This document shows, in pieces, positions 2-51,804 of a stretch of 64,000 bases of DNA; positions within the stretch are counted from its first letter, which is position 1, and the number at the start of each line of letters is the position of its first letter. Where the stretch lies: contig NZ_CACXXB010000006.1 of the NCBI RefSeq assembly GCF_902771435.1, positions 1 through 64,000 of the forward strand, written 5' to 3'. This stretch comes from an uncultured Methanobrevibacter sp. Its GTDB lineage: Archaea; Methanobacteriota; Methanobacteria; Methanobacteriales; Methanobacteriaceae. The notes beneath the pieces were generated by a model. It was not told where the DNA came from. It did not search any database and was given only the letters and a program-made list of their open reading frames with translations. Both the position numbers and the translations under genes were made by a program.

Positions 2-589
2 CATTTATGTGCATATTACACTGCTAACTGTGAAATTGACAGTGATGACTTAAAAGAGTTTTTAAAAGATCGTCTTACTCGTTATATGGTTCCAACCGTG
101 TTCATGCAGCTAGATGAAATGCCGCAAACACCAAACGGTAAAACTGACCTGAAACAACTGCCAGCACCACAACTTAGATTGTCATTTACACTCCCTGAAA
201 CTGAAACTGAAATAATCTTGCATGAAATTGCTTCATCCATCAGCAAAACAAAGGAATTCGGTACTACTGATGATTTGTATGCTGTCGGATTTACTTCATT
301 GTCACTGATGAAATTAAATGCAAGGATTTATGGGGAAATGGGTGTTAATTTAGATATTATTTCATTATTGAATGATCCTACAATCAAAAATATTGCAAAC
401 GAAATAGAAAACAATGATATTCTAGATTTGAATAGGCTAATAGAATCATCTAAGGACATGGTTTATTATCCATTGACAGAAAATCAGATGGGAATCTATT
501 ATGAGTGCATTCAAAGCGGTGATGTTGCACAATATAATCTGCCGTCAATCATAAGATTTGGCAGTGAAATTGATATATCCTTATCTTAA
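2..589 (+). CDS. Nonribosomal peptide synthetase, upstream piece (A C-terminus, T domain, start of C domain); frame broken
   Basis: This reading frame is already open at the window edge, so the 5' end of the gene lies outside. It encodes the end of an adenylation domain (Lys-loop region MPQTPNGKTD), a thiolation domain with the phosphopantetheine motif GFTSLSLM, and the first about 40 residues of a condensation domain (YYPLTENQMGIYYEC). It stops at 587-589, exactly where the next frame takes over with PYLKTRIV, the continuation of the same C domain. Comparison with the two later C domains shows 4 nt (575-578) where they have 45 nt, so about 41 nt are missing and the frame shifts. Either the gene is a pseudogene in this strain, or the assembly erred in a highly repetitive gene. 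Identity is certain from the in-gene copies; integrity is doubtful. Confidence 0.85.
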   Translation, partial: HLCAYYTANCEIDSDDLKEFLKDRLTRYMVPTVFMQLDEMPQTPNGKTDLKQLPAPQLRLSFTLPETETEIILHEIASSISKTKEFGTTDDLYAVGFTSLSLMKLNARIYGEMGVNLDIISLLNDPTIKNIANEIENNDILDLNRLIESSKDMVYYPLTENQMGIYYECIQSGDVAQYNLPSIIRFGSEIDISLS

Positions 590-3500
590 AACTAGAATTG
601 TTCCACAAAAAGGTAAAGTGATGCTGAAACGTGATGATTCATTAGATATTGATGATATTCCTATTGTTAATGTTGATAAGATTTCCGATGAAGAAATCGA
701 AAAAGAAAATCTGAAATTATTTGATTTGCATAATGACCAGTTATTCAGATTTAAAATCTATAAAACTCCTAGTGAAACAATTTTATTCTCTGATGTCCAC
801 CATATCATTTCGGATGGTGAATCCTTAGATAAGTTGTTCACAAATATTTCCAATGCGTATCAGGGAATTGAAATAGAAAAAGAAACAATCGATGGTTACA
901 TTAACAGCATAATAGAAAGTGAGAATGAAAACAGTGAAAAATATGAATTATCTAGAGAATTCTTCCATGATAAATTAACTCAAGAAGTTGATTCAACTGT
1001 ATTGACTCCTAATTTGAATGGTAATTTTAAAGAGGGAATTTTAAAATCAATTTCCAAAAATATAGATTCTGAATTGGTTAATAGGTTTTGCAGTGAAAAC
1101 AGGATATCCCCTAATGTTTTGTTTATGGCTGTAACCATGCTGAATTTGAATAAGTATACATTCAATGACAAAACATTGATTACAACTATTTTCAATGGAA
1201 GGTCAAACTCATCCTACATCAATACACAGGCATTTCTAGTTAAAACACTTCCAATTGTTTCAATCAGTGAGGATAGGACATTATCATTTAAAGAATATTT
1301 AAATTCAGTCAATGATGTCTGGTTGGAAACCATTAATCATTCTGATTATTCTTATACTAAGATTTCTGAAGAGTTTGGATTGAAACCTAATGGAAAAACT
1401 TATAAAGTTAAATATTTGAATTCACTTGAAGTCAACTATAAAATATCTTTGGATGTTAATGAAACCAAAGACAATCTTGAATTGTTTATCCAGTATAATG
1501 ACCAGTTGTACAGTGATGATTATATAGAAACATTCTTAAATTGTATTGTTAATGTTATAAATCAATTAATTGAAGCAGATATTGAAAAATTAAGCATTGG
1601 TGAAATAGAATTGGGTGAAAGTAAAGAGGCACCTACCTTTGCACCTGTTGATATGCCGATTTTACATAAACGCTTTGAAAAACAAGTGGTCGACAAAGGT
1701 GATGAAACTGCTCTTGTTGCAAGTGATGCCACTTTGACTTACAAGCAATTGGATGAAAAAGCAAATGTTATTGCAAATGCTTTAATAGATAAAGGAGTCA
1801 AACCGAAAAGTAATGTTTTAGTGATGCTTTCAAGGGACAGTAATTTGATTGCTTCCATTTTGGGTATCCTTAAAGCGGGTTGTGCCTTCATTCCGATTGA
1901 TCCGGCATATCCTAAAGAGAGAATAAATTATATTTATGAAAACAGTCAGGCGGATTATATTATTGCCAATGAATCCGGAGAGAATTCTTTAGATATTGAA
2001 GAACTGCTTAAACAAGGCAATTCAGAAAATCCTAACGTTAATGTTGATCCTGATGATTTGGCATATATGATTTATACTTCAGGTTCAACAGGTAATCCTA
2101 AAGGAGTAATGATTTGTCATGAAAATATCTGTAATCAGGCTCAAAATCCTAAATCCACTTATGATAGTTTGCTTTGTATTACAACTATCTCTTTTGACGT
2201 GTCTGTTGATGACATATTGACATCTCTTTCAAATGGGTTGAAATTGATATTGGCTGACGATGTTCAAATCAAAAATGTTCCTGAGCTTATTAAATTGATT
2301 GATGAAAATAAACCTGAAGTTTTAGAGATTACTCCGTCAAGAATTGGATCTTATCTTGAATTAGATGAATTCTGTAATGTGATTTCTTGTCTAAAATGTA
2401 TTTTCCTTGGTGGAGAGCAATTCTCAGCAAAAGTTTTTGATGATTTAAGAAAATACTGTGATGCGGTTATTTATAATAGTTATGGTCCAACTGAAACAAC
2501 AATCACCTCAAACAACAAAGAGATCACTGATGTGCACGATTTGACTGTGGGTCCTCCTTTAACCAATTATGTCACTGATGTTCGTGACATTGATGGAAAA
2601 TTAGTTCCTAATGGCGTAATGGGTGAATTATACATTGGTGGTACTGGTGTGGGTAAAGGATATTACAACATGCCTGAAAAAACCAAAGAATCATTCTTAA
2701 CTATCAATGGTATTCCATATTACAGAAGTGGGGACTATGCTATTGGACTTCCAAATGGTGAAATCGACATTAAAGGAAGAATCGACAACCAAATCAAATT
2801 AAGAGGATTAAGAATCGAAATTGGTGAAATTGAAACCAATATTGGTCAATATCCAGATATAATGCAAGCTGTTGTTGTAATTAAAGAAATTAACAATGCT
2901 GATCATTTATGCGCATATTACACTGCTAATGGTGAAATTGACACTGATGATTTAAAAGAGTTTTTAAAAGACAGGCTTACTAATTATATGGTTCCAACCG
3001 TGTTCATGCAGCTAGATGAGATGCCGCAAACACCAAACGGCAAGACAGACCTGAAACAACTGCCTGAACCTCAACTTAAATTGGCTTTGGTGATGCCTGA
3101 AACTGAAACGGAAGAAATATTATTTGAAATTGTTTCATCCATTGCAGATGTTGATGAATTTGGTGTTACAGATGACTTATACACTATTGGTTTTACTTCA
3201 TTGTCATTAATGAAATTAAATTCCATAATCTATGAGCAAATGGGTGCGAATTTAGACATTTCCATATTATTCAATGAGCCAACAGTTAAAAACTTTGCAA
3301 TAGCAATTGATAATTCATCTGAAAAAGAGGCTAGCATTCAAGAGATTATCGAATCCGCTAAAGACATGGAGTATTTCCCATTGACAGAAAATCAATTGGG
3401 TATTTACTATGAGTGTAAGCAAAATCCTGATGTGATTAAGTATACAATGCCTACAACAGTAAGATTTAGTAATGATGTTGATGCAAATAGACTTAAACAA

Positions 3501-6500
3501 GCAATTATTGATACTATTGAAGCACATCCGTATCTTAAAACAAGAATTGTAAATTATGATGGTGAATTAAAACAGAAAAGATGTGATGATTTAGCAATCA
3601 ACGATATTGAAATTGTTAAAGTCGATAGCATTGTTGATGAAGACATTGTTAGAAATGATGTCGCCCCAATCGCTATAGAGGACAGTCAATTGTTTAAATT
3701 CAAAATATATGAAACTCCTGATGAAGTTGTCTTATTCACAGATTTCCATCATATAATTACTGATGGTGTATCGCAAAACAATTTATTTAGAGATATAGCA
3801 GATATCTATGAAAATAGGGAGATATCCGAAGAGATAATTGATGGTTATACCTACAGTATTCTGGAAAAAGATGCCGAAAACAGTGAAACATATCAATCTG
3901 CAAAGGCATTTTTTGATGATAAATTAACTCAAGGAATAGAATCCACAGTTCTAACTCCAGATCTTAATGGAAATCCTGATGAAGGCAAAATAAAAAATGT
4001 TTCTGATACTATTGATTCAGAATTAATTAATGAGTTCTGTAATGATAATTCTATAAGTAAAAATGCTTTGTTTATCGCAAGTACCATTTTAAATCTAAAC
4101 AAATTTACATTCAGTGACAAATCATCAATAACAACAATATTCAATGGAAGATCAAGTCCGAGTTATTTCAATACTCAAGGATTTTTGGTAAAAACTGTTC
4201 CGTTTATAATAAATAATGAAAACAGGCAGGTGTCTGTCAGAGATTTCATTAACTCCATTGATCAAACTTGGAAAGAAACCTTAAGAAACAGTTCATATCC
4301 ATATATTAAAATTGCTGAAAAATATCAATTAAAACCTGAATTCTTCTATGCTTATCATGAATTCTTGGGATCAGATGAAATAAAAATAAACAATAAAGAG
4401 TACATTCCACAAGAGTTAGCCGGATTTTATATGGTTACAGTTGAATCTAAAATCAATTTGGCTATTTATGATAATGGAGATGAGTTTAATGTTGTCATGG
4501 AATATAATGACCAGCTATACAGTGAAGATTATGTCAGGACATTCATACAATCTATGAAGAACATTTTAGTTCAATTCCTTGAAAATGATATTGACAGTTG
4601 CAGAATCTGTGACGTAAAACTAAAAGATGATGTGGAATTACATGAATTTGTCGATGTGGAAATTCCATTTATCCATAAACGCTTTGAAAAACAGGTTGAT
4701 GAAACTCCGGAAAACACAGCATTAGTTGCATGTGATTGTTCATTGACCTATAGTGAACTTAACAAAAAAGCAAATCGTGTTGCTAATGCCCTTATAAACA
4801 GAGGAATAAAACCTAACAGTAATGTGTTAGTAATGCTTCCACGGGACAGCAAGCTTATTTCAGCTATTTTGGGTGTTTTAAAAGCAGGATGTGCATTCAT
4901 ACCTATTGATATAAACTACCCTGCTGGAAGGATTAATTATATTTTCGAAAACAGTCAGGCGGATTATTTAATAGCTGATGGCGTGATTGAAAATTCAATC
5001 GATATTGGTGAATTGCTCGAAGAAGAGAATACCTCAAATCCTCAAGTGGAAATTAATCCGGATGATTTGGCTTATATGATTTACACTTCAGGTTCTACAG
5101 GCAATCCTAAGGGAGTAATGACCAGTCATATGAATATTACAAATCTGTTCTCAAAAAGTGAGGATAGTGTAATTTATAATGCATATTCAAAAATGAAAAA
5201 GACCCTTGCTCTTTCAACAGTATCTTTTGATGCATTTTTACTTGATTTCATGCCATTAACCTATGGTTTGGAAATGGTGCTGGCTAATGATAGTGAAATA
5301 AAAAATATTAAGGAGTTAGCTGAGTTAGTTAAAAAAGAAAAACCAGATGCACTTACATTTTCCGCACCATCAAGATTTAAACAATATTTGGAATATGAGG
5401 AATTCGCCAAAGAAGTACCTAACTTCAAGTATATTGGTGTTGGTGGAGAAATGGTGCCTCAGGACCTAATTTCACGGCTTTTAGAGTATCCTAATTTAGA
5501 AGTGTATAATATTTACGGTCCGACTGAAACAACAGTAACATGTAATACTCATAAGCTTACTGCTGCTGAAAATATAACTGTTGGAAAGGCTCTGCACAAT
5601 TGCATAACTGAAGTTAGGGATATTGACGGAAAATTGGTACCTTGTGGTGTAATGGGCGAATTATACATTGGAGGTAAAGGTGTATCTAGAGGATATTACA
5701 ATATGGAAGAAAAAACCAAAGAAGTATTCCTATCTATTAATGATATTCCATATTATAGAAGTGGGGACTATGCTATTGAACTTCCAAATGGTGAGTTGGT
5801 AATAAAAGGAAGAATTGACAACCAAATTAAATTAAGAGGATTGAGAATAGAACTTGGTGAAATTGAATCCAATATTGCCAAATTCCCAGGTATTAGACAG
5901 GTTGTCGTTGTAATTGACAAAATCAATAATGTTGAACATTTATGTGCTTATTTCACATCCGATAAAGAAATAGATATAAATCTATTGAAAAGGTATTTGG
6001 GAAATAAATTAACTGAATATATGGTTCCAACCGTATTTATGCCTCTTGATGAGATGCCAATATCTCCAAATGGTAAAACGGATATTAAAAGACTTCCAAA
6101 ACCAAAATTAAATCTAGATTATGTTGAAGCTGAAAACGAAACTGAAGAAAAATTAGTTGAACTTGTTGCATCCATTGCCAATACAACTAAATTCGGTACA
6201 ACAGATGATTTATATCAATTGGGTTTCTCTTCTTTAACATTAATGAAATTAAACTCAATGATTTTCAATGAAATGAATGTGAATATTGATGTAACCTCAT
6301 TGTTTACAAATCCAACAATAAAATCGCTTGCAGATAAAATTGACAATAATATAGAATCTGAAATAGACGTGGATGAAATTATTGAAACTGCAAAAGATAT
6401 GGAATATTTCCCATTGACTTCAAACCAAATGGGAATTTATTATGAGTGTATGCAAACTGAAAAAATCAAATACACAATGCCTTTTGCAATAAGGTTTGAA

Positions 6501-9500
6501 AGCAGTATTGATCCTAATAAACTTAGAGATGCTGTTATTAAAACTGTTGATGCACATCCATATCTCAAAACAAGAATTATTAACACGGATGATGGAAAAG
6601 TATTGCAAAAAAGATGCGATCATGCTGAAATTGAAGAAATAGAAATTGAAGAAATAGATTCTATTAGTAATGAAGAAATAATGGAAAGAGACATAAAACC
6701 AATTCCGTTAGACAATAATCAATTATTTAGATTTAAAATCTATAAAACACCAGCAGAAACAATATTATTCGTCGATTTCCATCATATTATTACTGATGGT
6801 GTATCTCAAGGTATTTTCTTTAATGATTTGACCAAAGCATATAACAATGAAGAAATTGAATCTGAAATAATTAACGGATTTGAATACAGTCTGATTGAAG
6901 AGAAAACCTCTGTTAGTGAAGTTTCCGAGAAATTCTTCAAAAAACAATTTGGCCAAGACATTGAATCAACAGTTTTAACTCCAAATATGAATGGTAATCC
7001 TGATATTGGAAATATTAAACTTGTTTCAGACCAAATAAGTTCTAATTTTGTCAGGCTATTCTGTAAAGACCACTCAATAAGTTCAAATGTTTTATTTATG
7101 GCGGCTACACTTTTAAGCCTTAATAAATTTACATTTAGTGATAAGTCATTAATTACAACAATATTCAACGGTAGGGCAAACTCAAATTATTCAAATACTC
7201 AGGGAATGTTAGTTAAAACATTGCCTATTATTGTAAATGGCGAAAATCGTGACATGTTAGTTGAAGATTATGTAAAAATAGTTGATAAAGCATGGAAAGA
7301 TGCATTAATTCATAGCGATTATCCATACACAAAACTTTCAGAAGACTATCAACTAAAACCGGAATTCTTCTATGCATTCCATGAATCCTTAACGAATGAT
7401 ATTGAACTTAATGGTAAAGCTTATGAAGCTATTGACCTTGATGGTACTGTTTCAACTGATTATAAAATAAACATGGATATTTATGATGATGGGGAACTTA
7501 TTACTCTGTATTTGGAATATAACGACCAAATCTATACTGAAGAGTATGTTAATATGTTCCTGCGTTCAATTAAATATGTATTGTTCCAATTCTTTGTAAA
7601 CGATATGGATAAGCTAAAAATAAATGATATTGAATTGATGGAAGGGGAAATTCCAGAATTTATTGAAATTGACACTCCAATTTTACATAAACGCTTTGAA
7701 AAACAGGTTGTTAAAAAACCAAAAGATGTGGCATTGGTTGCAAGTGATGCTACTTTAACTTATGCGGAGTTGAATGAGAAAAGTAATAGGATTGCAAATG
7801 CATTAATCAGGCGAGGTGTAAAGCCTAAAAGCAATGTCCTTATAATGCTTAAAAGGGACAGTAATTTAATTGCTTCCATTTTAGGTGTCCTGAAAGCAGG
7901 TTGCGCATATGTTCCTATTGATCCGGAATATCCTCAGGAAAGAATCAACTACATTTATGAAAACAGTCAGGCGGATTATATCATAAGCTATGAGACTTCT
8001 GATAATTCCATCGATGTCAATGAACTTCTTGAAGATGGAATTACTGTTAATCCGAATGTTGAAGTTCTTCCAGATGATCTGGCATATATGATTTATACTT
8101 CAGGATCAACAGGTAATCCTAAAGGAGTAATGATTAGTCATAAAAACATCTGTAATCAGGCTCAAAACCCTAAATCCACTTATGATAGCTTGCTTTGTAT
8201 TACAACTATCTCTTTTGACGTGTCTGTTGATGACATATTGACATCTCTTTCAAATGGGTTGAAATTGATATTGGCTGATGATGTTCAAATCAGAAATGTT
8301 CCTGAGCTTATTAAATTGATTGATGAGAATAAACCTGAAGTTTTAGAAATTACTCCTTCAAGAATAGGCTCTTATCTTGAATTAGAGGAATTCTGTAATG
8401 TGATTTCTTGTCTAAAATGTATTTTCCTTGGTGGAGAGCAATTCTCAGCAAAAGTTTATGAAGATTTAAGAAAATACAGTGATGCAGTTGTTTATAACAG
8501 TTATGGTCCAACAGAAACAACAATCACCTCAAACAACAAAGAGGTCACTGATGTAAATGATTTGACTGTAGGCCCTCCTTTAACCAACTATGTCACTGAT
8601 GTTCGTGACATTGACGGTAAATTGCTTCCTAATGGTGTAATGGGCGAATTATACATTGGAGGTATGAGCGTTGGAAAAGGATATTACAACATGCCTGAAA
8701 AAACCAAAGAATCATTTTTAACCATCAATGGCATTCCATATTACAGAAGTGGGGACTATGCTATTGAACTTCCAAATGGTGAAATCGACATTAAAGGAAG
8801 AATCGACAACCAAATCAAATTAAGAGGATTAAGAATCGAAATTGGCGAAATTGAAACCAATATTGGTCAATATCCAGATATAAGGCAAGCGGTTGTTGTA
8901 ATTAGAGAGATTAACAATGTTGATCATTTATGCGCATATTACACTGCCAATTGTGAAATTGACAGTGATGATTTAAAAGAGTTTTTAAAAGACAGGCTTA
9001 CAAATTATATGATTCCGACCGTGTTCATGCAGTTAGATGAAATGCCGCAAACACCAAACGGAAAAACGGATACTAAGAAACTTCCGGAACCAAAAATGAA
9101 TTTGAAATATGTGGCACCGAAAACAAAACTTGAACAGGAAATCTGTGCAATATATTCATCCATATTGAATGTAGAAACTGTTGGTGCAGAGGATAATTTC
9201 TTTGAAATTGGTGGAACATCACTTATTGCATCAAAATTAATTATTGAATTGCTTAAACAGGGATATACTGTAAGATATGATGATATATTCAAGAAGAAAA
9301 CTCCTAAAGAACTAGCGAAATTATTGTCTGGAGAAAGCGGTTCCGAAGAGGATGAGTTGAATATAGAAGAGGACATTATCAAAAACTACGATTACAGTGA
9401 AATCAACAAACTTCTAGAAGAAAATACCTTAGAAAACTTCTTTGATGGTGAAAACCTGGAATTGGGCAATGTCCTATTGACTGGAGCTACAGGATTTTTA

Positions 9501-10562
9501 GGAATCCATATCCTATATGAATTCATCAAAAATGAGGAAGGTAAAATCTACTGTATGCTAAGAAAAGGTAAATTTGATTCATGTGAAGAAAGATTAATTG
9601 ATATGATGGATTATTACTTTGATGAAGATTTAACTGATCTAATCGGGTCACGCATTATCGTTATTGAAGGGGACATAACTGAAATTGATGACTTTAAAAA
9701 ACTTGAAGACGAACCGATTGATACAATAATAAATTCAGCAGCACTAGTAAAACACTATACTGCTGACGATTATATATTCAGGGTAAATGTCGATGGAGTA
9801 ATCAATGGACTTAAGTTTGCCCAAACAAGAAATAACATAAAATATGTGCAAATATCAACAATCAGTGTTCTCTCATCATACTCTTTAAATGAAGAGGAAT
9901 ATCCAAATCAGGAATATAATGAAAGAACATTATATTACGGACAGGATTTGGAAAATAAATATGTATGCAGTAAGTTTTTAGCTGAAAGGTCAGTTTTACA
10001 GGCGGCGACTAAAGGACTTCCAGTAAAAATAATTAGAGTAGGAAACCTGATGAGCCGTTACTCAGACGGTGTGTTCCAGAAAAACTATGATACAAATGCA
10101 TTTTTAAATAACATAAAGACCATTAAAAAACTAGGTGCTATGAATCCTATGATGGCTAATGAAAAGGTTGACATGAGTCAAATCGATTATGTTGCAAAAG
10201 GAATACTTGCATTATCTAAGACTCCAGAAAAATCCAGAGTATTCCATTGTATGAATAATCATTACATTTCCCATAGGGATATTATCGATGCATTAAATAC
10301 ATACGGTTATGGAATTGCTGAAGTGATTTTCGAAGAATTTAAACAGATTTTCGAACATAACATTAATGAGAATATACAGGGTATTATAACTGCCGATTTT
10401 TCAATTGATGACTTTGATGAAGAAGACGATTTCGAGGAGAATGTAGAAATTGAACAGACTGTTGATATTCTTCAATCATTAGGATTTGATTGGCCTAAAC
10501 CGGATATTAAGTATCTTAAACGATTATTCGATTATTTAAATAAATTCGATTATTTTGAATGA
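558..10562 (+). CDS. Nonribosomal peptide synthetase, C-A-T-C-A-T-C-A-T-reductase
   Basis: Cytoplasmic assembly-line enzyme joining amino acids held on phosphopantetheine arms. Domains in order, in residues of this frame: C1 (HHIISDG at 81-87), A1 (YTSGSTGNPKG from 506), T1 (Ser881), C2 (HHIITDG from 1064), A2 (YTSGSTG from 1509), T2 (Ser1892), C3 (HHIITDG from 2075), A3 (from 2513), T3 (Ser2888 in EIGGTSL), and a terminal NAD(P)H thioester reductase (TGATGFLG from 2975, YVCSK catalytic Tyr/Lys). The TTG at 558 is not a believable start; the frame continues the upstream piece after a frameshift. A1 and A3 are near-identical, A2 differs. The reductase implies release as aldehyde or alcohol rather than acid. 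The MATE exporter follows at once. Products of such methanogen NRPSs are, to my knowledge, unknown. Confidence 0.93.
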   Translation: MAVKLIYPYLKTRIVPQKGKVMLKRDDSLDIDDIPIVNVDKISDEEIEKENLKLFDLHNDQLFRFKIYKTPSETILFSDVHHIISDGESLDKLFTNISNAYQGIEIEKETIDGYINSIIESENENSEKYELSREFFHDKLTQEVDSTVLTPNLNGNFKEGILKSISKNIDSELVNRFCSENRISPNVLFMAVTMLNLNKYTFNDKTLITTIFNGRSNSSYINTQAFLVKTLPIVSISEDRTLSFKEYLNSVNDVWLETINHSDYSYTKISEEFGLKPNGKTYKVKYLNSLEVNYKISLDVNETKDNLELFIQYNDQLYSDDYIETFLNCIVNVINQLIEADIEKLSIGEIELGESKEAPTFAPVDMPILHKRFEKQVVDKGDETALVASDATLTYKQLDEKANVIANALIDKGVKPKSNVLVMLSRDSNLIASILGILKAGCAFIPIDPAYPKERINYIYENSQADYIIANESGENSLDIEELLKQGNSENPNVNVDPDDLAYMIYTSGSTGNPKGVMICHENICNQAQNPKSTYDSLLCITTISFDVSVDDILTSLSNGLKLILADDVQIKNVPELIKLIDENKPEVLEITPSRIGSYLELDEFCNVISCLKCIFLGGEQFSAKVFDDLRKYCDAVIYNSYGPTETTITSNNKEITDVHDLTVGPPLTNYVTDVRDIDGKLVPNGVMGELYIGGTGVGKGYYNMPEKTKESFLTINGIPYYRSGDYAIGLPNGEIDIKGRIDNQIKLRGLRIEIGEIETNIGQYPDIMQAVVVIKEINNADHLCAYYTANGEIDTDDLKEFLKDRLTNYMVPTVFMQLDEMPQTPNGKTDLKQLPEPQLKLALVMPETETEEILFEIVSSIADVDEFGVTDDLYTIGFTSLSLMKLNSIIYEQMGANLDISILFNEPTVKNFAIAIDNSSEKEASIQEIIESAKDMEYFPLTENQLGIYYECKQNPDVIKYTMPTTVRFSNDVDANRLKQAIIDTIEAHPYLKTRIVNYDGELKQKRCDDLAINDIEIVKVDSIVDEDIVRNDVAPIAIEDSQLFKFKIYETPDEVVLFTDFHHIITDGVSQNNLFRDIADIYENREISEEIIDGYTYSILEKDAENSETYQSAKAFFDDKLTQGIESTVLTPDLNGNPDEGKIKNVSDTIDSELINEFCNDNSISKNALFIASTILNLNKFTFSDKSSITTIFNGRSSPSYFNTQGFLVKTVPFIINNENRQVSVRDFINSIDQTWKETLRNSSYPYIKIAEKYQLKPEFFYAYHEFLGSDEIKINNKEYIPQELAGFYMVTVESKINLAIYDNGDEFNVVMEYNDQLYSEDYVRTFIQSMKNILVQFLENDIDSCRICDVKLKDDVELHEFVDVEIPFIHKRFEKQVDETPENTALVACDCSLTYSELNKKANRVANALINRGIKPNSNVLVMLPRDSKLISAILGVLKAGCAFIPIDINYPAGRINYIFENSQADYLIADGVIENSIDIGELLEEENTSNPQVEINPDDLAYMIYTSGSTGNPKGVMTSHMNITNLFSKSEDSVIYNAYSKMKKTLALSTVSFDAFLLDFMPLTYGLEMVLANDSEIKNIKELAELVKKEKPDALTFSAPSRFKQYLEYEEFAKEVPNFKYIGVGGEMVPQDLISRLLEYPNLEVYNIYGPTETTVTCNTHKLTAAENITVGKALHNCITEVRDIDGKLVPCGVMGELYIGGKGVSRGYYNMEEKTKEVFLSINDIPYYRSGDYAIELPNGELVIKGRIDNQIKLRGLRIELGEIESNIAKFPGIRQVVVVIDKINNVEHLCAYFTSDKEIDINLLKRYLGNKLTEYMVPTVFMPLDEMPISPNGKTDIKRLPKPKLNLDYVEAENETEEKLVELVASIANTTKFGTTDDLYQLGFSSLTLMKLNSMIFNEMNVNIDVTSLFTNPTIKSLADKIDNNIESEIDVDEIIETAKDMEYFPLTSNQMGIYYECMQTEKIKYTMPFAIRFESSIDPNKLRDAVIKTVDAHPYLKTRIINTDDGKVLQKRCDHAEIEEIEIEEIDSISNEEIMERDIKPIPLDNNQLFRFKIYKTPAETILFVDFHHIITDGVSQGIFFNDLTKAYNNEEIESEIINGFEYSLIEEKTSVSEVSEKFFKKQFGQDIESTVLTPNMNGNPDIGNIKLVSDQISSNFVRLFCKDHSISSNVLFMAATLLSLNKFTFSDKSLITTIFNGRANSNYSNTQGMLVKTLPIIVNGENRDMLVEDYVKIVDKAWKDALIHSDYPYTKLSEDYQLKPEFFYAFHESLTNDIELNGKAYEAIDLDGTVSTDYKINMDIYDDGELITLYLEYNDQIYTEEYVNMFLRSIKYVLFQFFVNDMDKLKINDIELMEGEIPEFIEIDTPILHKRFEKQVVKKPKDVALVASDATLTYAELNEKSNRIANALIRRGVKPKSNVLIMLKRDSNLIASILGVLKAGCAYVPIDPEYPQERINYIYENSQADYIISYETSDNSIDVNELLEDGITVNPNVEVLPDDLAYMIYTSGSTGNPKGVMISHKNICNQAQNPKSTYDSLLCITTISFDVSVDDILTSLSNGLKLILADDVQIRNVPELIKLIDENKPEVLEITPSRIGSYLELEEFCNVISCLKCIFLGGEQFSAKVYEDLRKYSDAVVYNSYGPTETTITSNNKEVTDVNDLTVGPPLTNYVTDVRDIDGKLLPNGVMGELYIGGMSVGKGYYNMPEKTKESFLTINGIPYYRSGDYAIELPNGEIDIKGRIDNQIKLRGLRIEIGEIETNIGQYPDIRQAVVVIREINNVDHLCAYYTANCEIDSDDLKEFLKDRLTNYMIPTVFMQLDEMPQTPNGKTDTKKLPEPKMNLKYVAPKTKLEQEICAIYSSILNVETVGAEDNFFEIGGTSLIASKLIIELLKQGYTVRYDDIFKKKTPKELAKLLSGESGSEEDELNIEEDIIKNYDYSEINKLLEENTLENFFDGENLELGNVLLTGATGFLGIHILYEFIKNEEGKIYCMLRKGKFDSCEERLIDMMDYYFDEDLTDLIGSRIIVIEGDITEIDDFKKLEDEPIDTIINSAALVKHYTADDYIFRVNVDGVINGLKFAQTRNNIKYVQISTISVLSSYSLNEEEYPNQEYNERTLYYGQDLENKYVCSKFLAERSVLQAATKGLPVKIIRVGNLMSRYSDGVFQKNYDTNAFLNNIKTIKKLGAMNPMMANEKVDMSQIDYVAKGILALSKTPEKSRVFHCMNNHYISHRDIIDALNTYGYGIAEVIFEEFKQIFEHNINENIQGIITADFSIDDFDEEDDFEENVEIEQTVDILQSLGFDWPKPDIKYLKRLFDYLNKFDYFE
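2045..3050 (+). repeat. Near-identical adenylation-domain copy (A1), partner of 8066-9071
   Basis: The A1 segment matches A3 at a constant offset of 6021 bp, with long runs identical at nucleotide level, including third codon positions. A2, between them, is much more diverged. The first 140 bases of the window match the ends of both copies, so a further upstream A domain belongs to the same group. This points to recent duplication or gene conversion. Confidence 0.85.
8066..9071 (+). repeat. Near-identical adenylation-domain copy (A3), partner of 2045-3050
   Basis: Second copy of the A-domain repeat inside the NRPS gene. It covers the region from the ATP-binding loop through the specificity pocket to the Lys loop, so both modules should load the same amino acid. 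Confidence 0.85.
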
Positions 10563-10573
10563 GGGTGAATAGT

Positions 10574-12256
10574 GTGTCAAATGAAATTATTTCTCATAAA
10601 TTCCGGGAATTGTTGTTGCCGTCATTGCTTATAGCAATGGCTTTAAACATAGCTTCTGTTGTTGATGCAAGTTTTGTATCAACATATATCGGACACAATG
10701 CACAGGCGGCTTTACAGGTATTGGAACCTTTGGTATTGTTAATCACAATATTTGAATGGCTGTTTGGATTGGGAGGTCAAATTTTAGCTTTAAATAAAAA
10801 GGCGGAATTTGATGAAGATGGGAGCAACCATTATTTCACAACTTCAATGCTTGCAACAATAGTTCTCTCAATTTTGATTTTATTGGTAAGCTTTTTATTT
10901 AAGGATGCCTTAATTAATCTATTGCATCCAACTGCCGGAGCACTACCTTATGTAAACGCATATAGTGTATATTTATTCATTAGTTTCCCAATTGCAACTG
11001 TATTGGGGGTTTTATGTCAGTTCATTCGTGTTGATGGACAACCAAATTTTGCTTCAGGGGTAATTATTCTTGTAAATATTATCAATATCATTTTAGATTA
11101 TTTGTTCCTCGGCATTTTACATATGGGCATTGAAGGAGCATCACTTGCAATGTTGATAGGTTATGTAGTTGGATCAATGTGTATCTTAAAATATCATTTT
11201 GATTCAAAAAGAACTTTCAGATTCGTTTTATCCAAATTGAAATTAAGGACTTGGATAACCTCAACAATTGAAATAATTAAAATTGGTCTTCCAGGCGCAA
11301 GTATGGGCTTTTTTAATGTATTGTTGATCTATATCATGAATTTAATTGTCAGTGGAGTTTTAGGAGAGCTAGGTTTGGACATATTCAATGTGTGTGTGAG
11401 TGCATTGTTGATAATTAGTATTTTAATTATGGGATTTGCCGAAACATTATCTTCCATTGTTCCTATTTATTATGCGCAAAATGATTATTATAACCTGAAG
11501 CATATTGTGCGAAAATCAGTTATTATAACATTAGCATGTTCAGTGTTATTCACTGTATTTCTGTTAGTGTATCCTGATGGATTATTAATATTTTTCAAAC
11601 TTCACCAAATGCCTAATGATTCATTAGTGGAAAATGCGATTAGAATATACTCATTAGCATTCATACCTATGGCATTTTCAACTATGCTGTTGTTTTATTA
11701 TGAAGGAATTGAAAGAACCGTCGAATCCGGTATCATTACAGTCATTTCAGAATTTCTAGGGCCGTTAATGTTTACATACTTATTGTTCCCTTACATTGGC
11801 ATCACCAGTGTCTGGTTATCTTTCTCGTTAGGTTTTGTTCTATCTATAGTTGCCGTTGTCATTTATGTAAAACTAGTTGAAAGAAATGACAGCGAATATT
11901 ATGGCCTGTTTTTCATTAAAAAGGGTTTAATAGAAAAAACTAGGAATTACACTTTAGAAAGCAAAAATGATGTTGTGAAATCTGAAATGTTCAGTCATTT
12001 GGAGAGTTTGAATGTGGAAAATTCATCTATTGAAACATTGGATAATATAATAAACACCATTTTTGATTCAAACAATAAAAAAGTGCATGTGGAAATATTA
12101 TTGATAGACTATGATGATAAAATTACCATCAATATGAAGGATGAGGGAAAAAGGGAAGTATTGAAAGATATTGAAAAATCCTTTTCACAAGATAACATCA
12201 AAGTTAGTGAAGTGTTGGGATTTAATAATATTGAATATGAAATTAATAGGAGCTAA
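10574..12256 (+). CDS. MATE-family efflux protein with C-terminal HATPase-like domain
   Basis: Multidrug/toxin exporter of the MATE family with about twelve membrane segments over residues 10-440. It lies directly behind the NRPS and probably exports its product. I prefer GTG at 10574 because a GGGTGA site (10563-10568) sits 5 nt before it; ATG at 10559 would overlap the NRPS stop by 4 nt. The last about 110 residues are soluble and not part of a normal MATE: after a linker comes a segment with NIINTIF, then DYDDKITINMKDEGK and a final FNNIEYEIN. This resembles a small RsbW/SpoIIAB-type HATPase domain, possibly degenerate because the glycine-rich ATP lid is not obvious. The MATE call is firm; the C-terminal domain is by eye. 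The gene ends in a hairpin terminator at 12318-12352. Confidence 0.88.
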   Translation: MSNEIISHKFRELLLPSLLIAMALNIASVVDASFVSTYIGHNAQAALQVLEPLVLLITIFEWLFGLGGQILALNKKAEFDEDGSNHYFTTSMLATIVLSILILLVSFLFKDALINLLHPTAGALPYVNAYSVYLFISFPIATVLGVLCQFIRVDGQPNFASGVIILVNIINIILDYLFLGILHMGIEGASLAMLIGYVVGSMCILKYHFDSKRTFRFVLSKLKLRTWITSTIEIIKIGLPGASMGFFNVLLIYIMNLIVSGVLGELGLDIFNVCVSALLIISILIMGFAETLSSIVPIYYAQNDYYNLKHIVRKSVIITLACSVLFTVFLLVYPDGLLIFFKLHQMPNDSLVENAIRIYSLAFIPMAFSTMLLFYYEGIERTVESGIITVISEFLGPLMFTYLLFPYIGITSVWLSFSLGFVLSIVAVVIYVKLVERNDSEYYGLFFIKKGLIEKTRNYTLESKNDVVKSEMFSHLESLNVENSSIETLDNIINTIFDSNNKKVHVEILLIDYDDKITINMKDEGKREVLKDIEKSFSQDNIKVSEVLGFNNIEYEINRS

Positions 12257-15794: not shown

Positions 15795-18700
15795 ATGACG
15801 GAAAAGAAAATTAAAACATTAACTGCCGAAGAAGTATCTAATGAATACACCGTTGCAGAACTAAGATCTATTTTAAAAGAAAATGATTTAAGTACTTCAG
15901 GCAAAAAGAAAGATTTGGTTGAAAGAGTTTTACCTATCTTAAATGAAGATTCAGCTGAGCCATCCAGTGACGATAGTGAAGCTGAAAAAGTAGATTTGTC
16001 TCCTCTAGTTGCTGAAGATCCGGTAACTTCTGCACTAAGTAATTATGGTATTAATTATGATGAATTGGCTATTAAAGACAAAATCTCCAAGGGAGAGGAT
16101 ACCACTTTAAATATTGAGGGTTTCACTCAAAACGGTTTGAGCATGTCTGATTCCACTATGTCTATTGTAGCTGCTTCAGATTCTTCAAATGTCGATTTGA
16201 AAATGAACATTCCTGAAGTTTCCTACTCAGACTATGAAAGTACAGTATTCACATTCAAAGACCTTGATTTATCTATTTTGCCAAGTTCAGATCCACAAAG
16301 CCTTGAGTTTTCAGCATTTCTGGATAGTTTGGAGATAATAACTGAAAGGGATTATGTAAATTTGAAAGATCTTGATTTGATTTTCAAAGCTTTTCCTGAT
16401 GAAAACGGCATAGCTGTAGATATTGGCATAAACAGCTTTTTATATCCTAACTTTAATAATGGAACTTTCAACTTTAAGGACCTTGATTTCAGTATGTCAA
16501 TAGGTGCCGACGGACAAAAACTAAATATATCAATAAACTTGCCTTCATTAAATCTCATAAGCAAAGACTATAAGGTAAATGTGTCCGATTTAAATCTGGA
16601 TATTGTATTGGCTGATTTAAATTTATCAGATCTTGACATATCCATATCCATGGCTGATTTCAAATACACAAACTTTGATGATGTTAATGTTAATATGGAT
16701 AATGTAAATGTATCCCTTGTTCCTGTTGTCAATGCAAATAGTTTTGATGTAGTTATCGGTATGGATAGTTTTGATTTCACGGGTACAAGTTTCGATGAAT
16801 TGTTCCCAATGTTAAATGTCGATACTGCAACCTTTAAAAACGCCACTGCTGCTGATGAATTCCCTGTTAATCTGATTGGTCATATATCTCCGTTAGATGT
16901 TTATCAAATGGACTTATTAGCCATTGGTGCTCTTTTAAGTTCTGGATTTGACATGGATACCTACATGAGAAACATGTCTAGCTTATATAGCGGCTCTTTC
17001 ATCGGTGCCGATGAAATTTCCAGTGCAACAATATCAGATTTAGCCTTTGGTATAGCTGACATATTTAAAAACTTTGATTATTCAACTTTGGATGGAATTG
17101 TGCTTAATTTATCAGGATTGGTTGAATCAGCAGGTATTGATTTTGCTGAATTCGGTATTGACATGTCAGATTATGATTTGTCTGCAATCAGCGTGCCGGA
17201 ATTTATTGACGCCCTTAAAGATTCTGTCTTTAGCCTGCCTGCAGTTACATCTGTTTTAAATATATTAACAATGGACTTTGGAAATCTTGACCTGTCCAGT
17301 ATTTTAATTAAACTTGATTTGGAAAAAATCGACTTTTCTGATTTATTAGCCAGTCTTAATTTAACCAACGAGGATATGATTGGCATTTTGGATATGCTCG
17401 AAAATTCAGACCTTGATTTAGGAAAAATATTTGAAAACTTCGATTATTCAATTTTAGATACAATTGTGCTTGATTTATCCGGTGTGGTTGATTCATTAGG
17501 CATTGATGTTGCTGCTTTAGGCATCGGCTTAGAAGACCTTGATTTATCTGCAATTAAATTGTCAGAAATTATGGGTATCCTGAATAATTTCGAGTTTGAC
17601 ATGTCTACTATTTCTGCATTGCTGAAATTATTAGATATTGATGTGGATGAACTTGATTTAGATGGTTTAATAAAAAGTTTTGATGCTGAAAACTTTGACA
17701 TATCTGCCTTATTAGCAAGTCTTAATATATCCCTTGATGATCTTTCCGCCATTATTGATATGTTCAATAATTCAGACCTTGACTTTGAAAAAATATTTGA
17801 AAACTTTGATTATTCCTGTCTGGATGCAATTGAACTTAATTTATCTGGATTGGTTGATTCATTAGGCATTGATTTGGCTGCTTTAGGTATTGACCTGTCC
17901 GATTATGATTTATCTGCAATCAAAATTTCAGAAATTATGGGTATTTTCGATAATTTCGAGTTTGACATGTCTACTATTTCTGCATTGCTGAAATTATTAG
18001 GTATTGATGTGGAAAAACTTGATTTCGAAGGTTTAATTGCCAGTTTTGATGCTGAAAACTTTGACATGTCCAGTTTATTGGCCAGTCTTAACTTAGAGGA
18101 ATTGGATATTGAAAGCATTACAGCTATGTTTGAAAATTCAGACATTGACTGGGAAAAAATGTTTGAAAACTGCGATTATTCAAGTATGGATGGTCTGGTG
18201 CTTGATTTATCCGGATTGATTGAATCAGCAGGTATTGACTTGGCCCAATTCGGTATTGATGAGTCAGAGTATGACTTCTCTGCAATTAGCGTACCAGATC
18301 TTGTCGGTATCTTTAATAATCCTGATTATGACATGTCCGAATTTGACTTATCCAGTATTGACATTGGCGGACTTGATGTGTCCAGTTTAGTTGCCAGTTT
18401 TGATGCTGAAAACTTTGACGTATCTCCTTTATTAGCTAGTCTTAATATATCAAGTGAAGATCTTTCTGCAATTATCGAAATGTTCAATAATCCAGAACTT
18501 GATTTAGCTGCTATGTTTGAAAACGTTGATTATTCCTGTTTAGGTGCAATTGAACTTAATTTAACTGGTTTAATTGATTCATTAGGTATTGATTTAGCTG
18601 ATTTAGGTATTGACCTGTCTGATTATGATTTATCTGCAATCAAATTGTCAGACCTTATTGACATCTTTAATAATTGCGAATTTGACATGTCCACACTTGC

Positions 18701-19676
18701 AGCTTTGTTAAAATTAGTAGGCATTGACGTAGATGACCTTGACTTGGAAGGTTTAATAGCCAGTTTTGATGTTGAAAACATTGACCTATCTGCTATTTTG
18801 GCCAGTCTTAATTTATCCAGCGATGATCTTTCAAAAATTTTAGAAATATTCACTAATCTTGATTTAGATGCCATATTTAGAAACTTTGATTATTCCTGTT
18901 TCGGTGCAATTGTGCTTGATTTATCCGGATTGATTGATTCATTAGGCATTGATTTGGCTGCTTTAGGTATTGACCTGTCAGATTATGACGTGTCTGCAAT
19001 CACATTGTCCGATCTTATGGACATTTTCGGTAATTTTGACTTTGACATGTCTACTCTTGCAGTCCTGTTAAAATTAGTCGGCCTTGACCTAGATGACATT
19101 GATTTGGAAGGATTAATAAAAGGTATTGACTTTGAAAATATTGACATGGATGCTTTATTGTCCAGTTTCAATTTATCCATGGATGACCTTGCTGCATTTT
19201 CAGAGATGTTCGAAAATCCAGACTTTGATTTAGCTGCTATGCTTGAAAACTTAGATTATTCCTGTTTGGATGCAGTTGTGCTTGATTTATCTGGAGTGAT
19301 GGATTCAGTAGATATTGATTTTGATAGTTTGGATATTAATTTGAAAGGTTATGACCTCTCTGAAATTAGATTGTCCGATGTTATTGACATCTTACGTAAT
19401 TCTGAATTTGTCATGACTGTCGCTAATGCTTTGTTAAAAGTATGCAATATTGACTGGGATGAACTTGATATGTCCGGACTAATAGTTAAATTTGATGTAG
19501 ATGAACTTGATATGTCTGCTTTATTAACTAGTCTAGATTTACCTGTGGATATTGAAGGTATTTTATCCATGTTCGAAATGTACGGTTTTGATTTATCAGA
19601 ATTCCTGAATCAATTCTTAGGAATGTTCATGGAAAGTGCCGCTCCTGAAATTGCTGGTGCTTCTGATGATGAATAG
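15795..19676 (+). CDS. SAP-domain protein with seven 122-residue acidic Leu/Asp-rich repeats
   Basis: 1293 residues, no signal peptide and no membrane helix, hence probably cytoplasmic. Residues about 13-50 (YTVAELRSILKENDLSTSGK, then KKDLVERV) form a SAP helix-extension-helix motif, normally a nucleic-acid binder. Residues about 80-350 hold five loose units built around FKDLDLS or similar. From about residue 425 seven tandem units follow, each opened by NxDYSxxxxIxLxLSGLxxSxGID and containing DFDMST, SFDAENFD and LLASLN blocks. The unit openings at 17070, 17436, 17802, 18168, 18522, 18882 and 19248 are 366 bp apart, except 354 and 360 for the fourth and fifth. The repeats are very rich in Asp, Leu, Ser and Ile and poor in basic residues. 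I do not recognise the repeat family. Possible roles are scaffold, cation-binding or DNA-organising protein; none is shown. Confidence 0.85.
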   Translation: MTEKKIKTLTAEEVSNEYTVAELRSILKENDLSTSGKKKDLVERVLPILNEDSAEPSSDDSEAEKVDLSPLVAEDPVTSALSNYGINYDELAIKDKISKGEDTTLNIEGFTQNGLSMSDSTMSIVAASDSSNVDLKMNIPEVSYSDYESTVFTFKDLDLSILPSSDPQSLEFSAFLDSLEIITERDYVNLKDLDLIFKAFPDENGIAVDIGINSFLYPNFNNGTFNFKDLDFSMSIGADGQKLNISINLPSLNLISKDYKVNVSDLNLDIVLADLNLSDLDISISMADFKYTNFDDVNVNMDNVNVSLVPVVNANSFDVVIGMDSFDFTGTSFDELFPMLNVDTATFKNATAADEFPVNLIGHISPLDVYQMDLLAIGALLSSGFDMDTYMRNMSSLYSGSFIGADEISSATISDLAFGIADIFKNFDYSTLDGIVLNLSGLVESAGIDFAEFGIDMSDYDLSAISVPEFIDALKDSVFSLPAVTSVLNILTMDFGNLDLSSILIKLDLEKIDFSDLLASLNLTNEDMIGILDMLENSDLDLGKIFENFDYSILDTIVLDLSGVVDSLGIDVAALGIGLEDLDLSAIKLSEIMGILNNFEFDMSTISALLKLLDIDVDELDLDGLIKSFDAENFDISALLASLNISLDDLSAIIDMFNNSDLDFEKIFENFDYSCLDAIELNLSGLVDSLGIDLAALGIDLSDYDLSAIKISEIMGIFDNFEFDMSTISALLKLLGIDVEKLDFEGLIASFDAENFDMSSLLASLNLEELDIESITAMFENSDIDWEKMFENCDYSSMDGLVLDLSGLIESAGIDLAQFGIDESEYDFSAISVPDLVGIFNNPDYDMSEFDLSSIDIGGLDVSSLVASFDAENFDVSPLLASLNISSEDLSAIIEMFNNPELDLAAMFENVDYSCLGAIELNLTGLIDSLGIDLADLGIDLSDYDLSAIKLSDLIDIFNNCEFDMSTLAALLKLVGIDVDDLDLEGLIASFDVENIDLSAILASLNLSSDDLSKILEIFTNLDLDAIFRNFDYSCFGAIVLDLSGLIDSLGIDLAALGIDLSDYDVSAITLSDLMDIFGNFDFDMSTLAVLLKLVGLDLDDIDLEGLIKGIDFENIDMDALLSSFNLSMDDLAAFSEMFENPDFDLAAMLENLDYSCLDAVVLDLSGVMDSVDIDFDSLDINLKGYDLSEIRLSDVIDILRNSEFVMTVANALLKVCNIDWDELDMSGLIVKFDVDELDMSALLTSLDLPVDIEGILSMFEMYGFDLSEFLNQFLGMFMESAAPEIAGASDDE
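17070..19613 (+). repeat. Seven tandem 366-bp coding repeats
   Basis: In-frame direct repeats, 354-366 bp each. Units 2 and 3 are the closest pair by eye, as are 5 and 6. The length changes are multiples of 3, so the frame is held by selection on the protein. Confidence 0.9.
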
Positions 19677-21158: not shown

Positions 21159-23147
21159 ATGAGAGACATTGAGGAACTTAAAAAGACACCCGGATTATCA
21201 TTGAAAAGTTATTTGATAATGTTTATTGCAAACATAATAGGATTGTATCTGATTAGCTTCGGATTGGATTTTACCGTTGACAATCTTAATCGTGTTATAC
21301 TATTCATATTTTTCATCAGTATTTTCAATATATTATTCTGGCCACTTTTAACAAAGATGTTAATGCCGTTTTTTGTTTGGACTTTTGGAATAGCAGGTCT
21401 TCTTTTAAATGGAGGCCTATTTGCAATTTTCGGACCATATTTTGGTTTAAACATTACAGGATGGGGAATAATTCTAGCACCATTGACTATATCATTAATT
21501 ACAATAATCCTGTCAACTATATTTACAATGGATGATGACGGCGCATATTTCCAATCTGTTTTAAGAGAAGCTCAAAGGAAAAGAAAAGGGGACATTAAGG
21601 ATTACCCTGGATTGATAATCGTTGAAATAGACGGTCTTGCTTATGATGTTTTATGTGAAGCTATTGAAAATGGTCATATGCCGACTGTCAAATCAATGAT
21701 GGATAGCAAAACCCATACCCTTAAAAAATGGGAAACAGATCTCTCTTCACAGACCGGAGCCAGCCAGGCCGGAATCCTCCATGGAAATAACGAAGATATC
21801 ACTGCTTTTAGATGGGTTGAAAAAGAAAATGACAATCAGATAATGCAATGTTCCGGTGTTACAAAAGTAAAAATACTTGAAGAAAGGATATCTGACGGAA
21901 ACGGATTGCTTGTGGATGATGGGGCGAGCAGATCAAATCTATTTTCAGGAGATACAGACAATGTAATATTCACTTTCAGTAAAATAACTGATCTGAAAAA
22001 ACTATATAACGGCGCATGGTTTTCCATTTTTTCAAATCCCAACGATTTTGCACGTATAGTCGTGTTGGTCTTTGAGGATATTGTTCGTGAAATTATTTCT
22101 CAATTCAAACATAAAATATTAAACATCAGACCAAGAATTTCACGGGGAATCACATATATTCCTACAAGAGCAGGGACAAATGTATTCATGAGGGAAATCA
22201 ACACTGAAACGCTAATTGGTGACATGATGGTTGGAGATATTGATGTTGCATATTCCACATATTTGGGTTATGATGAAATCGCCCACCATTCAGGAGTCAG
22301 AGATGATGATGCATGGTTTGCCCTTAGAGGAATGGACAGACAGATAAAACGTTTGTTTGAAGGAAACAAATATTCTCCAAGGGAATATCAGTTCGTGATA
22401 CAGTCTGACCATGGCCAAACCAACGGTGCAACATTCAAGCAAAGATATGGACAGTCATTTGAAGATTTTATCAAATCCCTGCTTCCTCAGGACATGGACT
22501 TATATGCAAACATGTCTTCAAACGAAGACCATTTTGCGGAGGTATACATTCCTTTTTCAGATAAAATTGACTACATTAAAAACAGAGGCAAGGAAGATGA
22601 AGAAAAAGTGCTGTCAGAATCTGAAATTATTGTTCTTGCTTCCGGAAATCTTGCAATGATTTATCTAACTCAATGGAATCATAGACTGACCTATGAGGAA
22701 ATCAATGAAATGTTCCCAGAGCTGATTCATGAAATCGTCAGCAATGAATACATTGGATTTATTTTAGTCAGATCATCTCAAAAAGGAGACATGGCAATAG
22801 GTAAAAATGGAATATACTATCTCGATAGTGATGAAATTGAAGGGGAAAATCCTCTTGAAGGCTTTGGAGATAATATTGCTCATCATTTAAAAAGAAACAG
22901 TTCTTTCAAATACACTCCGGACATTTTAGTCAACAGCTTTTATGATGCTGAAAATGATGAGGTTTGTGCTTTTGAAGAGCTTGTTGGAAGCCATGGTGGA
23001 GTTGGGGGAAGCCAGTCAGAACCGTTTATTTTATATCCTTCAGATTGGAATGTTCCTGATGAGGAAATAGTAGGTGCGGAAAACATCTACAGGGTATTGA
23101 AAACAAATTTAGCCAATATTAAAGAAAACGCTAAAACCGATAAGTGA
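21159..23147 (+). CDS. Membrane protein: phage-holin-like region fused to alkaline-phosphatase-superfamily domain
   Basis: 662 residues. Residues about 15-130 are four hydrophobic helices of the phage holin family 4 type. From about 150 comes a type I phosphodiesterase/nucleotide pyrophosphatase domain: LIIVEIDGLAYD (first metal-binding Asp), SSQTGASQAGILHGNN (nucleophile Thr/Ser region), DVAYSTYLGYDEIAHHSG and IQSDHGQTNG (metal-binding Asp/His), and a late GSHGGVGGSQ. All the usual metal ligands appear to be present. The substrate cannot be read; phosphodiesters or glycerol-phosphate-type polymers and lipids are candidates. Start ATG at 21159 has an upstream GGGTAGGT site. It stands alone, with a strong terminator after it. 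Confidence 0.85.
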   Translation: MRDIEELKKTPGLSLKSYLIMFIANIIGLYLISFGLDFTVDNLNRVILFIFFISIFNILFWPLLTKMLMPFFVWTFGIAGLLLNGGLFAIFGPYFGLNITGWGIILAPLTISLITIILSTIFTMDDDGAYFQSVLREAQRKRKGDIKDYPGLIIVEIDGLAYDVLCEAIENGHMPTVKSMMDSKTHTLKKWETDLSSQTGASQAGILHGNNEDITAFRWVEKENDNQIMQCSGVTKVKILEERISDGNGLLVDDGASRSNLFSGDTDNVIFTFSKITDLKKLYNGAWFSIFSNPNDFARIVVLVFEDIVREIISQFKHKILNIRPRISRGITYIPTRAGTNVFMREINTETLIGDMMVGDIDVAYSTYLGYDEIAHHSGVRDDDAWFALRGMDRQIKRLFEGNKYSPREYQFVIQSDHGQTNGATFKQRYGQSFEDFIKSLLPQDMDLYANMSSNEDHFAEVYIPFSDKIDYIKNRGKEDEEKVLSESEIIVLASGNLAMIYLTQWNHRLTYEEINEMFPELIHEIVSNEYIGFILVRSSQKGDMAIGKNGIYYLDSDEIEGENPLEGFGDNIAHHLKRNSSFKYTPDILVNSFYDAENDEVCAFEELVGSHGGVGGSQSEPFILYPSDWNVPDEEIVGAENIYRVLKTNLANIKENAKTDK

Positions 23148-51705: not shown

Positions 51706-51804
51706 AAAATTTTTGATTAGAAGTTCATTTCTGTAAAATTATTTATAATTATCTTGACAGATATATCATTTAACAAATTACTTTTTGTTATAACCGGTGA
51801 AAAA

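Follow-up and report, generated by a model that had tools for sequence, protein, structure and literature searches.

How does a giant acidic repeat protein of a methanogen come to begin with a SAP domain, and on which side of the membrane would such a protein work? The question is raised by one gene in a stretch of 64,000 nucleotides (the window) from an uncultured Methanobrevibacter sp. (contig NZ_CACXXB010000006.1, positions 1 to 64,000). This protein of a rumen methanogen is probably intracellular and may sit on the chromosome. The gene, its parts and a neighbouring gene are laid out as follows:

15795..19676, + strand: whole gene, 1293 aa, ATG start (open frame; dN/dS 0.20-0.33 against the G041 relative)
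15843..15932, + strand: SAP domain, residues 17-46 (Pfam PF02037, 38.4 bits, cut-off 23.9)
16095..16781, + strand: beta-meander domain, residues 101-329, strands of ~13 residues (AlphaFold2 model; hydropathy signals at lag 37 and lag 2)
16137..16802, + strand: six loose stretches of ~37 residues, residues 115-336 (cut by eye; lag-37 signal; identity not above shuffles)
17076..17441, + strand: repeat unit 1, residues 428-549 (this and the other units by anchor motif and unit identity)
17442..17807, + strand: repeat unit 2, residues 550-671
17808..18173, + strand: repeat unit 3, residues 672-793
18174..18527, + strand: repeat unit 4, residues 794-911, a short unit of 118 aa
18528..18887, + strand: repeat unit 5, residues 912-1031
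18888..19253, + strand: repeat unit 6, residues 1032-1153
19254..19619, + strand: repeat unit 7, residues 1154-1275, the most diverged
19620..19673, + strand: short acidic tail, residues 1276-1293 (protein sequence)
21159..23147, + strand: neighbour gene, phosphodiesterase with a 4-TM region (Pfam)

The first-pass annotation had read the protein as a SAP motif followed by seven tight repeats of no recognised family, strongly acidic and without an export signal, and this outline stands. The SAP domain matches PF02037 at E 9.2e-10, above the gathering cut-off. The net charge is -212 for the whole protein, of which -160 falls in residues 428-1275, and aspartate makes up 131 of the 848 residues of the repeat units. 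Searches of the protein with Pfam and NCBIfam matched no known catalytic domain and no model covering the repeat units; a Pfam repeat family spanning them, which the annotation had named as a possible counter-finding, was looked for and none reached its cut-off. Sequence searches yielded no relatives of known structure, and neither the tRNA nor the Rfam scan of the window returned anything.

The tight repeats are marked by an anchor motif at residues 428, 550, 672, 794, 912, 1032 and 1154, giving spacings of 122, 122, 122, 118, 120 and 122. Compared in pairs, the units are 53% identical on average, whereas 20 shuffled sets give 23% (sd 1.8, max 27), and the array is also visible in the DNA (TRF: period 366, 5.5 copies, 73% matches). 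The units contain 76 copies of a short motif (hydrophobic, D/N, hydrophobic, S/D/T/E/A), compared with 13.7 in shuffled sequences; the copies are spaced at 5, 14, 19 and 28, so that the 122-residue unit is itself composed of small pieces. A five-residue spacing is seen in the exported form of G113, one of the related genomes introduced below. A pentapeptide fold for the repeats was considered and set aside as not shown: PF00805 has no match up to E 10 in the window protein, and among eight family members it is matched by one, at E 0.032. The repeat array has a pLDDT of 39, and both structural models are too poor in this region.

The loose repeats, of which the annotation had counted five, behave differently from the tight ones. 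As a pattern of the fold they roughly hold: hydropathy autocorrelation of the loose region peaks at lag 37 (0.25, SE ~0.06), and AlphaFold2 draws a meander of alternating long strands, with pLDDT mostly 64-82 in this beta domain and 47 for the whole model. As sequence repeats they do not, the mean identity of the stretches in residues 115-336 being 22%, against 21.6% (sd 3.1) for shuffles.

With the whole protein as query, 67 genomes from the genus returned relatives mixed with unrelated SAP proteins, and the body of the protein without its SAP domain was therefore used instead. It finds matches in 15 of the family's 138 genomes, and a profile does so in 15 of the order's 150, all inside Methanobacteriaceae and in three genera; the gene is thus dispensable for most. 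One match of the body search (G137, E 2.5e-4) is absent from the profile search and was treated as chance; its frame looks, by eye, like an oligosaccharyltransferase.

Comparison of these sequences shows that the family is one body with two N-terminal versions, SAP-headed and exported, a distinction that is new here. Eight genomes, spread over the three genera, have full-length SAP forms with repeats: G000 (that of the window), G041, G008, G063, G040, G098, G113 and G085, the alignment row of the last beginning a few codons ahead of its listed GTG. The SAP domain of the fusion gene exceeds the Pfam cut-off in all six genomes examined. Full-length signal-peptide forms occur in four genomes (G016, G003, G008 and G113), so that G008 and G113 hold both. 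The beta domain and first repeat region of the window protein are homologous to those of its exported relatives; identity over the alignment is 36-43% for three of these and 26% for that of G113 (G113x). The signal-peptide forms have one repeat region followed by a C-terminal domain, found also in other long open frames: 13 of those 67 genus genomes have it, often in frames of 400-1166 aa. This domain has no match in G000, and G008 has the only SAP form that keeps it. Five further genomes lie outside the sequon and cysteine counts given below: G014, where the SAP start and the repeat end lie at the ends of two contigs; G097, with a split frame and no SAP domain; G036, where a fragment of an exported form is fused behind a transporter frame; G125, with the C-terminal end of a family member; and G112 (a 403-aa frame).

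The array is fairly constant in size. Of the eight full-length SAP forms, five carry seven anchors and G040 carries five; unit 4 is usually the shortest (118 aa also in G041, G008 and G113; 115 aa in G063). In G098 and G085 the anchor pattern counts too few units, and the profile search finds eight and five matching stretches, respectively; an insert of ~65-70 residues in the array is common to G098 and G097. Between G000 and G041 all seven units pair by position. In the more distant genomes G063, G040 and G113 the inner units group by genome, and since inner units are alike within a genome, the units appear to exchange over long times while their number stays fairly steady. The expectation that copy number changes by recombination therefore holds in part: exchange is seen among inner units of distant genomes, but the number is seven in most forms and G041 matches unit for unit.

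On which side of the membrane each version works is suggested by three features of their sequences: (i) the N-terminus, (ii) the frequency of N-x-S/T sequons, and (iii) the number of cysteines. Taken over 19 residues, N-terminal hydropathy peaks at 0.08 in the window protein, at no more than 0.33 in any of the eight SAP forms and at 1.82-2.37 in the four exported forms. An overlooked export signal, the other counter-finding named beforehand, was sought here and in the upstream frame and was not found: the open frame starts just 22 codons before the ATG, and those codons include no start codon. An adhesin with a missed signal is rejected on the same grounds. Per 100 aa, SAP forms have 0.56-1.51 sequons and exported forms 3.08-5.73, or 0.69-1.50 against 2.02-2.48 times the expectation from shuffles, with no overlap of the ranges. 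In the shared region alone, five SAP forms have 3-9 sequons and three exported forms 15-17. Cysteines number 6-15 in SAP forms and two in exported ones. The window protein itself has 16 sequons (1.50 times expectation), level with two cytosolic-looking or membrane neighbours. For comparison within the window, an adhesin-like neighbour stands at 3.14, whereas the other large ORFs mostly have values of 0-0.9; the ORF at 51754 (2.23), which departs from this, is itself an exported-looking protein. The Mann-Whitney p of 0.004 for the contrast between the forms ignores kinship among the SAP forms; these are one clade, and the contrast in sequons and cysteines therefore counts as one shift and not as eight independent ones. 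Hydropathy, sequons and cysteines together favour a cytoplasmic SAP form, which probably stays in that compartment. The adhesin reading is thus wrong for the window's gene, but it fits the exported proteins to which the body of this gene's product is related by ancestry.

A tree built on the shared region unites the eight SAP forms in one clade (support 100/100). Genera are mixed inside it (G098 with G000 and G041; G085 with G008, G063 and G040), which implies that copies moved between genera or that old ones were lost. In a tree of 46 columns, with little resolution, the fusions' SAP parts group together (94/85), beside the SAP domains of a separate genus protein of ~300 aa. The C-terminal domain kept by the SAP form of G008 has the sequon N-M-T changed to D-M-S and has gained two cysteines, as judged by comparison with the exported forms, and a broken remnant of the same domain lies 0.6 kb upstream of that gene. 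The domain and the remnant favour an exported ancestor. The most economical history would be a single exchange of a signal peptide for a SAP domain, followed by repeat expansion; this is the direction of change that we infer, the tree being rooted at its midpoint, on a long branch (G113x). Between G000 and G041, dN/dS is 0.33 for the SAP domain and linker, 0.26 for the beta domain and unit 1, and 0.20 for units 2-7, values that suggest purifying selection and argue against decay.

The genomic surroundings are variable. Downstream, the phosphodiesterase gene is next to the array gene in three genomes (G000, G014 and G063) and no more than ~6 kb away in two others (G008 and G041); the copy in G040 is on another contig than the SAP gene. 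A link to the window's NRPS was rejected, there being no stable association across genomes: a giant NRPS frame is likewise beside the locus in G008, the SAP gene of G085 lies at 60 kb with the nearest NRPS matches at 105-110 kb and 506-518 kb, and the matches in the remaining genomes are on contigs other than that of the SAP gene. A phage origin was also discarded, with no relative in viral contigs and a best PHROGs E of 0.044.

A mechanism can be proposed from these observations. The signal peptide of an exported protein would have been replaced once by a SAP domain like that of the separate ~300-aa protein, and the repeat unit would then have multiplied from one to about seven. The SAP-headed protein would remain in the cytoplasm, where its SAP domain might dock on chromosomal DNA. 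The beta-meander and the acidic repeat array could together form a long arm of negative charge, recruiting or buffering basic proteins that bind DNA, for example histones or Alba, so that the whole protein would work as a nucleoid scaffold. Chromatin association of the protein is plausible. The statement as a whole, from the single SAP-for-signal swap to a cytoplasmic, DNA-docked acidic arm handling basic chromatin proteins as a nucleoid scaffold, is tentative, its chance falling short of even. The still more specific account, in which a surface protein moved inside by one such exchange, shed sequons, gained cysteines and charge, raised its repeat number from one to seven and ended as an acidic scaffold on the chromosome that handles archaeal histones, is conceivable but leans towards the unlikely.

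Other roles for the acidic body have to be weighed against this nucleoid scaffold. The array might act as a DNA mimic that takes the place of DNA on DNA-binding proteins, with the SAP domain serving only to concentrate it near the chromosome. The charge of the array, its few basic residues and the missing catalytic domain would suit such a role; on the other side, the charges follow an L/D/S pattern with hydrophobic residues at alternate positions, unlike a smooth acidic surface, and the array is without a confident model. A defence island was also considered and rejected: PADLOC gave no match at 0.01 for the window protein and three neighbours, and the lack of a defence or anti-defence family among them weighs further against mimicry, which is unlikely.

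The beta domain invites a different reading, a cytosolic carrier or scaffold for hydrophobic molecules in which the meander would bind lipid and the SAP domain would be a protein contact. The model has long amphipathic strands, and a second structural comparison is led by the beta-belt of apolipoprotein B (Z 12.8, rmsd 6.5, 207 residues aligned; model-based). However, Foldseek with the model of the domain finds no match at E 0.001 or better, and apolipoprotein B is followed by membrane barrels whose Z is similar (10-12), so the likeness to both is likely to reflect a common arrangement at best. DUF945 (PF06097) resembles the domain to the extent of a weak match in seven of eight members (best E 2e-5), but membership of the window protein is rejected, since its 17.4-22.4 bits fall below the cut-off of 26.8. 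E. coli YdgA is not matched by profile either, and two control comparisons had the same look. A hydrophobic carrier is thus rather improbable.

Storage of Ca2+ or Mg2+ by the aspartate-rich repeats would fit their composition, yet no known calcium-repeat family is matched (Pfam, NCBIfam) and the exported relatives, in calcium-rich surroundings, are less acidic (net -44 to -61), which makes a cation store distinctly improbable. Export by a route without a classical signal could draw on the exported relatives and the sequons that remain; it is very improbable given the hydrophilic N-terminus of every SAP form, a sequon and cysteine make-up shifted towards that of the cytosol, and a SAP domain kept under selection. 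A functionless relic, suggested by broken copies such as the split G097 frame without SAP domain and the exported-form fragment in G036, is scarcely credible against the dN/dS values and the full-length frames in eight genomes.

If the inferred history is correct, this compartment change by domain exchange in Archaea would be a clean natural experiment, with one body outside and inside the membrane. Both versions are still alive, even within G008 and G113, and from the pair direct predictions follow for glycosylation, cysteine content and charge. Should the SAP form bind DNA, gut methanogens would possess a type of nucleoid protein not described for them in the literature searched: neither 'SAP domain' nor 'SAP motif' was found joined with Methanobrevibacter, nor 'SAP domain' with methanogen, and a search on SAP domain, archaea and nucleoid gave nothing on archaeal nucleoids as far as titles tell. 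The word 'SAP' is likewise absent from the text of the paper on M. ruminantium M1 (PMC2812497).

The closest known systems fall on either side of the membrane. The exported Methanobacteriaceae relatives (L007, L008, L032 and L076, of an unnamed family) share the homologous beta domain and first repeat region; they differ in that they begin with a signal peptide where the window protein has SAP, and in their single repeat region, C-terminal domain, many sequons and two cysteines. They resemble the broad class of adhesin-like proteins of M. ruminantium M1, as described in PMC2812497; the window protein, in contrast, is without signal, membrane anchor or wall domain. On the chromosomal side, SAF-A/HNRNPU has a SAP domain at its N-terminus followed by a D/E-rich acidic region, according to PMC12176297. 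The SAP-then-acidic order is common to both proteins, a likeness of layout and not of descent. The window protein differs from SAF-A/HNRNPU: Pfam matches no SPRY, ATPase or RGG part in it, its acidic part is an ordered array of 122-residue units, and its body is homologous to exported archaeal proteins.

The SAP domain of the fusion gene may have been donated by a SAP protein of about 300 residues (L002:1339-2220 and relatives). This protein is widespread in the genus, and its gene lies between an LtrA-like gene and a small membrane gene.

Further genes of the window:

86-12256, (+), NRPS frame of 3334 aa
20036-20542, (-), small protein (168 aa) that looks exported, encoded between the SAP gene and its phosphodiesterase neighbour
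51754-54039, (+), Ppx/GppA phosphatase domain protein (Pfam, 1.4e-44)

Ppx/GppA phosphatase domains are as a rule intracellular. In the 51754-54039 product, a signal-peptide-like start is followed by the phosphatase domain and then by Ig-like domains (Pfam Big_3_5 and Big_1), with 2.23 N-x-S/T sequons per 100 aa. This is the case of the SAP gene reversed: a normally intracellular domain behind a signal-peptide-like start.

The 168-aa protein is without a Pfam match. Another exported-looking protein, of 324 aa with Met/Asn/Ser repeats (MSGMNMSDM...; L076:11579-12553), adjoins the exported family member of genome G113 and has a similar C-terminal domain. In G008, a C-terminal domain of the exported form's type survives as a broken remnant (L033:10090-10197) 0.6 kb upstream of the SAP gene, and in G036 a fragment of an exported family member (L037:6920-7534) sits behind an MFS-like transporter frame. 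Similar MFS-like transporters, likewise named by eye, flank the family gene in G041, G040 and G085. The repeat arrays of G098 and G097 (L074, L077) contain an insert of ~65-70 residues, GDEPITIGEGVTDAT...

The NRPS frame is preceded by a carrier-domain ORF and followed by a MatE transporter; its best G085 counterpart lies at 506-518 kb. In G008, a 10,816-aa open frame with many NRPS matches (L033, contig C1) stands directly upstream of the phosphodiesterase and SAP genes. The window frame is likely of the same kind as mru0351, reported for M. ruminantium M1 (PMC2812497).
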